Positions 2,563 to 8,909 of a stretch of DNA of 64,000 bases are shown here, in pieces. The number at the start of each line of letters is the position of its first letter. Within the stretch, counting starts at the first letter, position 1. Made by a program: the position numbers and the translations under genes. The notes beneath the pieces were generated by a model. It searched no databases. It saw nothing but the letters and a program-made list of their open reading frames with translations, and was not told where the DNA came from. Source of the stretch: Deltaproteobacteria bacterium (lineage in GTDB: Bacteria > Myxococcota_A > Polyangia > Polyangiales > JADJMO01); contig JANYDK010000103.1 in NCBI GenBank assembly GCA_025363655.1, forward strand, positions 1 through 64,000, written 5' to 3'.

Positions 2563-3759
2563 TCAAAACGAGAACGTCACCGCCACCCGATGAGAGCTGA
2601 CGTCATCGCCCTTCGTCTTCAGCAAATACGCATACGAAAGCTCAATCCCGAACAAATCCACGCCGCTGAAAAAGACCAGCGGAAAGCGCCCACTCGACGT
2701 GCTCGTGCCGTTGGCCTCGACGTGCGACGAACAGCCCACCGTGCACGCCGGATCGTCGGCGACGACCGTCGCGAGCGTCTGCCGCAGGGTGGTCGTGCGC
2801 CAGACGATGCCGACGCCGAAGTTGAGGAAGAAGTGCGCGCGCCGGCTCAAGTTGAGGCGATATCGCTCCCCGAGCTCGACCTCGTAGCGCGTGCCCGACT
2901 GCGTGAGGGCGACCCCCTTGGCCGAACCGCTCCAAAAATAGGCGGCGAGCCGAACGTCGGTCGACCAATGATCGGCGACGGTCCACGAACGGTTGAGCTC
3001 GAGGCCGGTGAAGATGTGATCGGGCTCGAACTCGAAGGCGACGCCGAGTTGACCGAGGCTCTCGACGCCGCCGCCGGAGTAGACCTCGGGCGCCGTCACG
3101 GCGCGGGCTTCGAGCGCGGGCAGCAGGTTCGCAGAGACGGCGAAGGTGACGCCGCTGCCGATACCGAACGAGACGACCCCGAGGACGTCTCCGCCGCAGT
3201 CGAGGAGCGGCCCCCCCGAGTATCCAGGCGCGATCGGAGCGTCGGTCTGCACCAGGTTGGCGTTGTGCCCTCCGACGATGCCCGCCGTCGCCGACCACGA
3301 GAGGAGTCCGGCCAGCTCGCCTCCTTCATGGGTCGCGAGTGGATGGCCGAGGGCGACGCACGAGGCGCCCGTCGCCGGCGATCCGGACGCTGCGACGAGC
3401 GGCTTGGCTTCGGGGACCGGCACCTCGAGCTCGAGGATGGCGAGATCGTCGGCCTCGCCGGTGGCGATGACTTGCGCAGGGATCTTGCGGCCATCGGCGA
3501 GGACGACGCGGAGCTCGTGCCCGGTGGCGATGACGTGGTACGCGGTGACGATGTGGCGCTGGGTGGTGCCGTAGAAGAAGCCGGCGCCGATGCCCTTGGT
3601 CGTCTCGATGCGCACGATCGACGTGATGCGTTCGCGATAGACGCGCTCGACCCAGCCCGGCTCGCAGATTGGCGCCGCGCGCGCGGGACCGATCGTCGCG
3701 AACGCGACGAAGGCGAGCGAACCGACGACGTTGAGGATCGCGCGCTTTCGTATGGTCAT
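2563..3759 (-). CDS. Secreted trypsin-like serine protease with C-terminal beta-barrel-like region
   Basis: 398 residues. A signal peptide (residues 1-28, cleaved near ARA-AP) precedes a trypsin/DegP-type domain at about 40-220. The catalytic triad is visible as His75 (TAYHVI), Asp104 or 105 (EADDLAILEL) and Ser181 (GYSGGPLLD). No PDZ domain follows. Residues 230-398 instead consist of alternating polar/hydrophobic strands with aromatic ends, and the protein ends in Phe (VAVTFSF), as outer-membrane beta-barrels do. I infer an exported protease tethered in, or docked to, the outer membrane. It lies 18 bp downstream of the lipoprotein gene at 3778-4407, probably in one operon. Confidence 0.75.
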   Translation of the reverse strand: MTIRKRAILNVVGSLAFVAFATIGPARAAPICEPGWVERVYRERITSIVRIETTKGIGAGFFYGTTQRHIVTAYHVIATGHELRVVLADGRKIPAQVIATGEADDLAILELEVPVPEAKPLVAASGSPATGASCVALGHPLATHEGGELAGLLSWSATAGIVGGHNANLVQTDAPIAPGYSGGPLLDCGGDVLGVVSFGIGSGVTFAVSANLLPALEARAVTAPEVYSGGGVESLGQLGVAFEFEPDHIFTGLELNRSWTVADHWSTDVRLAAYFWSGSAKGVALTQSGTRYEVELGERYRLNLSRRAHFFLNFGVGIVWRTTTLRQTLATVVADDPACTVGCSSHVEANGTSTSSGRFPLVFFSGVDLFGIELSYAYLLKTKGDDVSSHRVAVTFSF

Positions 3760-3777: not shown

Positions 3778-4407
3778 CTACTCGACGCCGTCCCCGGGCA
3801 CGATGGTGCGGTCGCCCAGGTCTTCCGCGTTCTGCTCGGCGAGGTGCTTTTTTCCAGCGTCGATCTCGTCGTGCAGATCGTCGGGGTGCTCGTTCAGCGC
3901 TGCCTGACCGGCGACGCGATTGGGCACCAGCTCCTGGGTGTCAGCGAGCCAGGTGGTGACGTCGGCCCAGGTCTCGCTGCGCGGCGTGATGGCGAGGATG
4001 TCGATGCCGGTCATCTTCGGCGCCAGCTCGACGAAGTAGACGCGACCAGGCGCGAGGTTGGCGCGCATCGCGTCGCTGCGAGAGACCGAATCGTTGTCGG
4101 CGTAGGCGATGAAGACGTGCTCGCCCGGCGGCAAGGTGACCGCGAAGTGCGTGTGCGCGAGGGCATCGCCGAGGAAGTGTCCTTCGCCATCGATGACCTG
4201 GTAGCGCGCGAGGAACGCGTACTCCGACGGGCGGATGAAGACGACCAGCGCCTGTCCCACGGGCGCATGACGCGCGCTCGGCGTCGCCGCTTCACGCATG
4301 AAGTCCGAGTGAGGCGCGCACCCAACGGAGGAGAGAGGGAGGAGCGCGAGGCACGCGAGGAGCGCGAGGCGCGTGGCGGGCTTGAAATAGGGCTTCCAGC
4401 GAGACAT
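3778..4407 (-). CDS. DUF2846-like lipoprotein
   Basis: 209 residues from ATG at 4407; the frame is open further upstream, but the signal peptide begins here. The signal MSRWKPYFKPATRLALLACL... ends in lipobox SVGC (Cys30). The body has the pattern of DUF2846-type lipoproteins: an opening strand ALVVFIRPS, a middle PPGEHVFIAYAD, and a late GRVYFVELAPK. The C-terminal 40 residues are charged. Function is unknown. The next gene, 18 bp downstream, encodes the secreted protease, so the two may act together in the envelope. The start faces the divergent lipoprotein gene at 4555. Confidence 0.7.
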   Translation of the reverse strand: MSRWKPYFKPATRLALLACLALLPLSSVGCAPHSDFMREAATPSARHAPVGQALVVFIRPSEYAFLARYQVIDGEGHFLGDALAHTHFAVTLPPGEHVFIAYADNDSVSRSDAMRANLAPGRVYFVELAPKMTGIDILAITPRSETWADVTTWLADTQELVPNRVAGQAALNEHPDDLHDEIDAGKKHLAEQNAEDLGDRTIVPGDGVE

Positions 4408-7676: not shown

Positions 7677-8909
7677 ATGTCGCGGCCGGAGCGGATGCGA
7701 GATCACCTCGCGCTCGTCGTGCCGTGCATGCTCTTTGCGGTCTTCGCGATCATCGCACCGACCTCGCTCGCGGCCTGTCGACGGGCGCACTCCGAAGAAG
7801 GCGTGACCGCGCCGGCGCCCTCGGCGAACCCACCGCAGCCGCCGAAAAAGGGCGTCACGGGCCCGATGTTGGCGCTCGGTGGTGCGCACAGCTGCGTGCT
7901 CGAAGGGGGCGTCGTCCGCTGCTGGGGCGCCAACGTGAATGGACAGCTCGGCAACGGCACGCACCTCGATCTCGCGCGGCCGAGCCTCGTCCCCTCGCTC
8001 GAGGGAGTCAGCACGCTGTCGCTCGGCGTGCACCACACGTGCGCCTCGCTCACCGACGGCACCGCGCGCTGTTGGGGTGCCAATGGCAGCGGGCAGCTCG
8101 GCGACAACAGCCGCGTCAGCAGGCCCAATCCGGTGCAGGTGGCTGCCCTCCACGCAGTCACCGCGATCGAGTGCGGCGGGGCGTTCAGCTGCGCGCTCCT
8201 CCTCGACACCACCGTCCGCTGCTTCGGTCAAAACGTGCAGGGACAGCTCGGCGACGGCACCAGCAAAGATCAACGCGCCCCCGTCGCAGTGCGCGGATTG
8301 CGCGGCGTCGCAGAGCTCGCGCTCGGGGATGCCTTCGCCTGCGCGCGCATCAACGACGGCACCGTCAAGTGCTGGGGAGAGAACGAGCACGGCGAGCTCG
8401 GCGATGGCAGCGGCGCACCGCATCGCGATCCGATGCCGGTTTCGGGCCTGAAAGACGTCATCCAGCTCTCGGCCGGCGCGGTCCACGCTTGCGTAGTCCT
8501 CGCCGCGGGCACCGTGCGATGCTGGGGCGCCAACATCATGGGCGAGCTCGGCGACGGCACGCAGCTCGACCACCCGACGCCCGTCGACGTCCCCGGCCTG
8601 ACCGGCATCGCCGAGGTGCGGCTCGGTCGACACCTCTCGTGCGCCCGTCGCAACGACGGCACCACTGCCTGCTGGGGTTGGCGCGCCTTCGGCCAGACAG
8701 GGGACGGCACCTGGCACGCAACGCCTGAATTTCTGGCGATTCCGCGCACGATCGAGGGGCTCGTCGCGGCGCACCTGGCGGTCGGCGACGAGCACGCGTG
8801 CGCGCGCGACGTCCAAGGCGCGGTGCGTTGTTGGGGCCACGACGAGCGCGGACAACTCGGCGGAGGGAGCCGCGAAGATCGGCCCTTGCCGACCGCAATC
8901 TCTTGGTGA
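7677..8909 (+). CDS. RCC1-repeat lipoprotein
   Basis: 410 residues. The signal peptide ends in lipobox SLAAC (Cys34), so it should be lipid-anchored in the envelope. From about residue 60 to the end there are seven or so RCC1 repeats with the recurring core CWGxNxxGQLGDGT, predicting a seven-bladed RCC1 beta-propeller. Such proteins are common and duplicated in myxobacterial genomes; the ligand is unknown. Each repeat has a Cys pair (SCVLE, VRCWG), so disulfides between strands are plausible outside the cytoplasm. The next gene is a kinase that also has a propeller-like half. Confidence 0.85.
   Translation: MSRPERMRDHLALVVPCMLFAVFAIIAPTSLAACRRAHSEEGVTAPAPSANPPQPPKKGVTGPMLALGGAHSCVLEGGVVRCWGANVNGQLGNGTHLDLARPSLVPSLEGVSTLSLGVHHTCASLTDGTARCWGANGSGQLGDNSRVSRPNPVQVAALHAVTAIECGGAFSCALLLDTTVRCFGQNVQGQLGDGTSKDQRAPVAVRGLRGVAELALGDAFACARINDGTVKCWGENEHGELGDGSGAPHRDPMPVSGLKDVIQLSAGAVHACVVLAAGTVRCWGANIMGELGDGTQLDHPTPVDVPGLTGIAEVRLGRHLSCARRNDGTTACWGWRAFGQTGDGTWHATPEFLAIPRTIEGLVAAHLAVGDEHACARDVQGAVRCWGHDERGQLGGGSREDRPLPTAISW

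Follow-up and report, generated by a model that had tools for sequence, protein, structure and literature searches.

A candidate outer-membrane-tethered HtrA-like protease family with one bamD-linked clade and many triad-less members

In the window, by which we mean the whole stretch of 64,000 nucleotides that was analysed, we examined a gene, P0002, that encodes a signal peptide, a trypsin-like protease domain of the HtrA type, and a C-terminal domain that is predicted to form an eight-stranded outer-membrane barrel. We read P0002 as a protease tethered to the outer membrane, belonging to a family in which one clade is tied to barrel assembly and many relatives are pseudoproteases, and we put the probability of this reading at roughly 0.6. 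The features of the gene and its product are listed in Table 1.

Table 1. Features of P0002, its product, and the gene upstream, with positions in the window
Feature	Residues	Position	Strand	Remarks
Lipoprotein-like gene upstream of protease gene		3781..4401	minus	start approximate
Protease-barrel gene P0002	398 aa	2563..3759	minus	ATG at 3759; stop TGA 2565-2563
Sec-type signal peptide	1-29	3673..3759	minus	cleavage near ARA-A, placed by eye; predicted helix 3-22
HtrA-like chymotrypsin-fold protease domain	31-222	3094..3669	minus	Pfam, NCBIfam, PDB, model
Cys32	32	3664..3666	minus	co-varies with Cys188
Catalytic His75 (TAYHV)	75	3535..3537	minus	family alignment and sequence
Catalytic Asp105 (DDLAILEL)	105	3445..3447	minus	family alignment and sequence
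Catalytic Ser181 (PGYSGGPL)	181	3217..3219	minus	family alignment and sequence
Cys188	188	3196..3198	minus	putative partner of Cys32
C-terminal domain	224-398	2566..3090	minus	putative eight-stranded outer-membrane barrel
Strand b1	237-245	3025..3051	minus	
Strand b2	251-262	2974..3009	minus	
Strand b3	264-276	2932..2970	minus	conserved R270 opposite hydrophobic face
Strand b4	290-304	2848..2892	minus	conserved E295 and R301 opposite hydrophobic face
Strand b5	309-321	2797..2835	minus	G317 in 45/45
Cys339 and Cys343	339, 343	2731..2745	minus	longest predicted outer loop
Strand b6	357-370	2650..2691	minus	
Strand b7	371-382	2614..2649	minus	Y376 in 45/45
Strand b8 and C-terminal beta-signal HRVAVTFSF	390-398	2566..2592	minus	by eye and end motif

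The protease gene and its family

The open reading frame and the sequence itself indicate that P0002 is a real, single gene, as the sequence-only reading of this DNA had proposed; it lies on the minus strand, a detail that the earlier reading did not give. The N terminus of the product, MTIRKRAILNVVGSLAFVAFATIGPARAA, resembles a signal peptide. A Pfam scan placed Trypsin_2 (PF13365) at residues 58-195 (E value, 1.9e-22; 81 bits versus a gathering cutoff of 27.6), and Trypsin (PF00089) also matched (3.7e-9). Matches to NCBIfam were mostly of the HtrA type, although none of the 13 models listed reached its own curated cutoff. The best PDB match was plant Deg1 (3qo6), both by sequence (4.6e-21) and by fold (3.9e-15), and DegQ, DegS, and HtrA structures were also recovered by fold. 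The model used for the fold search was built from an alignment of protease relatives only; for residues 31-222, mean pLDDT in ten-residue blocks ranged from 50 to 96 and was mostly near 90. The full His/Asp/Ser triad claimed previously was recovered as H75, D105, and S181 in a 45-member family alignment, and the claim that no PDZ domain follows the protease held not only for P0002 but also for the 18 and 33 family members scanned with Pfam. P0002 therefore shares the protease fold, motifs, and best PDB matches of the HtrA/Deg proteases (DegP, DegQ, DegS, and Deg1) but differs from them in having no PDZ domain, in scoring only 85.5 of the 416.2 bits set as the cutoff of its best NCBIfam match, degP_htrA_DO (TIGR02037), and in carrying a barrel-like C-terminal domain instead. 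The serine motif is PGYSGGP rather than PGNSGGP, a variant also seen in several of the protease's archaeal relatives. Three loci from archaeal metagenome-assembled genomes (L011:5857-7825, L012:5794-7822, and L014:5893-7915) each carry two tandem trypsin-like genes on the same strand, less than 100 bases apart.

The protease gene follows a lipoprotein-like gene whose stop codon lies 18 bases from the protease ATG and whose product matched no family in the Pfam or NCBIfam scan; this gene is a possible operon partner. Elsewhere in the window, positions 7677-8909 encode an RCC1-like repeat protein (identified by eye) whose BLAST cluster recurs in 5 of 20 neighbourhoods compared, but genes of this type may just be widespread in the genomes concerned.

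We surveyed the spread of the C-terminal domain with queries of increasing depth. A single C-terminal sequence matched 3 of 317 genomes of the class, its own included; a four-row profile matched 13 of 377 genomes of the phylum; and an 18-row profile matched 43 of the 317 class genomes at an E value of ≤1e-3, with 52 matches in all. The orthologue survey called for earlier thus showed that P0002 is not a one-off. None of the four other genomes from the window's own taxonomic family matched the 18-row profile, and four other places in the window's own genome matched the protease region only. A contig search beyond the phylum likewise returned protease-only relatives, and scans of viral contigs found no relatives usable in a model alignment. 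Once duplicates had been taken out and one genome of another class added, there were 51 distinct ORFs, of which 45 were kept for the alignment; L063, L067, and L068 (truncated) and L080, L081, and L082 (weak C-terminal matches) were left out. The 51 do not include the class match G233:C81:6-137. Trypsin_2 was detected in 17 of 18 members in one Pfam scan and in 26 of 33 in another, the 33 including the six dropped ORFs. In the members that we read, the domain order is constant: a signal peptide, often a Pro/Glu-rich stretch, the trypsin-like domain, and the C-terminal domain. The earlier statement that no described family has this order agrees with our Pfam and NCBIfam scans and with a search of the open-licence PMC literature. 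The parts are known; within those searches, the combination had neither a family model nor a description.

Overlap with bamD and loss of the catalytic triad

The gene directly upstream of the protease gene encodes a TPR lipoprotein in 13 of the 45 loci. We scanned four of these 13 proteins, and all matched the BamD model TIGR03302, three of them above its cutoff; the fourth, which was cut by the end of the fetched stretch, scored above the cutoff in a whole-genome search. In all 13 genomes, the neighbouring bamD is the only BamD gene above the cutoff. A start codon for the protease gene and the bamD stop codon share four bases in 12 cases and one base in the remaining case. Because this overlap occurs at all 13 loci and involves the sole above-cutoff BamD of each genome, it is a strong sign that the two genes are translationally coupled and their products made jointly in these bacteria. 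An excerpt of PMC3359395 describes BamD as the only one of the lipoprotein subunits to occur across the proteobacteria. The 13 bamD-adjacent members make up exactly one strongly supported clade (99/97), and all have an intact triad; the link with bamD possibly reflects a single event, since it is confined to one clade. In the window's genome, BamD is encoded on another contig and is followed by an exonuclease-like ORF (by eye). As the window's copy does not lie beside bamD, a role shared with the clade is one that we infer for it. In the neighbourhoods of three bamD-linked relatives (L094:7735-9657, L099:7901-9382, and L100:2-1333), the protease gene is followed on the same strand by a response-regulator gene whose product has a sigma-54 activator-like domain (by eye), giving the order bamD, protease-barrel gene, regulator.

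H, D, and S are all present in 22 of the 45 members, including that of the window, and the triad is lost in the other 23. The replacements are diverse (SDA, RER, DGE, GGA, SGT, and others), and for this reason the losses are likely to have been independent. In a tree built from the C-terminal domain only, the active/inactive label requires four changes (range of 3 to 6 in bootstrap trees; mean of about 15 after shuffling), but the backbone of this tree is weak, and a single change is all that its strongly supported branches require. A Fisher value, which takes no account of relatedness, was not counted as evidence. In the triad-less members, a binding-scaffold role for the domain is probable. 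The frequency of loss, the differing replacements, and the number of changes on the tree would also fit a broader proposal, namely, that the protease part serves mainly as a structural scaffold throughout an outer-membrane protein family, with catalysis a secondary matter and the active members no more than relics. We regard this as unlikely: none of the 13 bamD-linked members has lost H, D, or S, and the window's copy retains all three despite a very diverged C-terminal domain (end branch, 1.86).

The C-terminal domain as a putative outer-membrane barrel

The C-terminal domain is about 160 to 175 residues long, and about 15 residues separate the protease from the first strand. Eight stretches of the family alignment alternate between hydrophobic and polar residues. 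An automatic alternation scan flagged b1 to b7 in part or whole, whereas b8 was not flagged and was assigned by eye. The C-terminal beta region noted earlier, put at about 170 residues ending in Phe, is thus present as about 175 residues with eight alternating strands and the chain end HRVAVTFSF. Long loops and tight turns alternate, with very short turns after b2 and b6 and the longest loop between b5 and b6. This loop contains two cysteines in 27 of 45 members, none in 18, and never one. In the protease domain, Cys32 and Cys188 are both present in 30 members, both absent in 12, and present singly in 3, a pattern suggesting a disulfide between them. The co-occurrence of both pairs fits disulfide formation in an oxidising compartment, and we counted it as support for export. 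Of the 45 members, 31 have F as the last residue, and the ends of 34 resemble the pattern H-x-h-x-h-G-h-x-aromatic; BAM recognises C-terminal signals of this kind. Charged residues sit inside small outer-membrane barrels, as R270, E295, and R301 would in the predicted arrangement.

We used profile-profile comparison to relate the domain to known barrels. Residues 224-398 gave no Pfam match at an E value of ≤10, OMP_b-brl (PF13505) included, and in the 18 members scanned no C-terminal domain reached the gathering cutoff of OMP_b-brl, with one matching weakly (0.035). When a 45-row family profile was compared by hhalign with a 34-row OMP_b-brl alignment from the same phylum, the result was 58% with a score of 35.5 over 133 columns, reaching the domain end; in the other direction it was 69% with a score of 38.0 over 52 columns, values that denote distant similarity only. 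Control scores were 20.8 and 18.2 for reversed profiles, 12.5 for the soluble YceI barrel, and 12.5 for the family's own protease domain, and 100 block shuffles gave a mean of 18.8 (standard deviation, 3.6; maximum, 30.1). Hydrophobic alternation exceeded that of every shuffle for both the family profile (z, 4.7; 0 of 1,000) and the single sequence from the window (z, 3.8; 0 of 1,000). Comparison domains gave z values of 6.4 (OMP_b-brl), 4.2 (YceI), 3.8 (OmpA), 3.7 (OmpW), and 1.6 (OmpX); since soluble YceI approaches the value for the family, we did not take alternation to prove that the barrel lies in a membrane. With OMP_b-brl proteins, by kind OmpA, OmpX, and OmpW, the domain shares length, strand number, dyad pattern, beta-signal, and profile-profile similarity, but it falls below the Pfam cutoff and is joined to an N-terminal protease.

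A different possibility is a soluble C-terminal domain, a beta-barrel or sandwich that stands in for PDZ in binding substrates, in which case P0002 would be a free periplasmic or secreted protease. Structure prediction leaves room for this, with a pLDDT of 32 for the domain in a single-sequence AlphaFold model and of less than 50 over residues 230-398 in the model whose alignment held only protease relatives, and both the YceI alternation and the failure of Pfam to recognise the domain are compatible with it. We nevertheless consider it quite improbable, given that the hhalign scores for OMP_b-brl stand well apart from those for YceI and the reversed profiles, that the chain ends in F within an H-x-h-x-h-G-h-x-F motif, that long loops alternate with tight turns, and that the gene is coupled to bamD in relatives. 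Taken together, the evidence supports an eight-stranded outer-membrane barrel as the predicted fold of the C-terminal domain.

The sequence-only reading had suggested that the protease carries its own outer-membrane anchor or translocator. The anchor stands, on the strength of the eight amphipathic strands, the beta-signal, and a similarity to OMP_b-brl above the controls, and we judge it to be quite probable; the translocator does not. Type Va autotransporter proteases have the same order of signal, protease, and C-terminal barrel, and their translocator is a 12-stranded C-terminal domain of about 280 residues. Despite this resemblance, it is highly improbable that the protease reaches the cell surface by way of the barrel, a proposal that we rejected on strand number, since the domain has about 160 to 175 residues and eight strands, a barrel of eight strands is too narrow for a passenger, no autotransporter family was among the Pfam matches of the C-terminal domains of the window and 18 members, and only about 15 residues link the protease to the first strand. 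Two long ORFs elsewhere in the phylum (L125:1495-3348 and L136:136-2121; starts approximate) have an OMP_b-brl barrel at the C terminus preceded by more than 450 residues with no Pfam match and are possible further fusions of a periplasmic domain to a barrel.

A possible role in outer-membrane protein assembly

For the outer-membrane-tethered protease that we favour, we propose the following course of events. P0002 would be exported by Sec, and BAM would insert the C-terminal barrel, leaving both chain ends in the periplasm. Given the even number of strands and the short linker after the protease, the periplasm is the most likely location of the protease, which would be held beneath the outer membrane, at its inner face. 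There, it would cut misfolded, unfolded, or stalled envelope proteins, and in the bamD-linked clade, co-production with BamD would point to the assembly machine itself. The overlap with bamD in relatives suggests a role in assembly or quality control, for which we would give slightly less than even odds. More tentatively, and as a possibility rather than an expectation, the family may constitute a so far unnamed module for BAM-linked proteolysis in this order of bacteria, with an HtrA-type domain fixed permanently under the outer membrane by an eight-stranded barrel, translationally coupled to BamD in one clade, and represented by catalytically dead receptors or scaffolds in other lineages.

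Omptins likewise combine a protease and an outer-membrane barrel in one protein, but there the barrel itself is the enzyme and faces outward, whereas P0002 has a separate chymotrypsin-fold domain. A precedent for a protease at BAM is BepA of E. coli, which an excerpt of PMC13067283 describes as cleaving late-stalled substrates and cross-linking to BamA, BamC, and BamD. BepA, an M48 metalloprotease, shares the role proposed here, proteolysis of stalled outer-membrane proteins at BAM, which in our family is suggested by the coupling to bamD in one clade; BepA uses metal chemistry and has no barrel, whereas the P0002 family would use serine chemistry and carry a barrel of its own.

Most of what is known about proteases that oversee the assembly of outer-membrane proteins comes from E. 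coli, and there these enzymes are soluble or lipoproteins. If our reading is true, a serine protease sitting in the outer membrane and co-produced with the only BamD would solve the same problem in another way. It would connect BAM with proteolysis in a manner open to testing, in a bacterial group whose envelope biology has been little studied, and the split between active and inactive members of one family would offer natural controls for the fold without catalysis.
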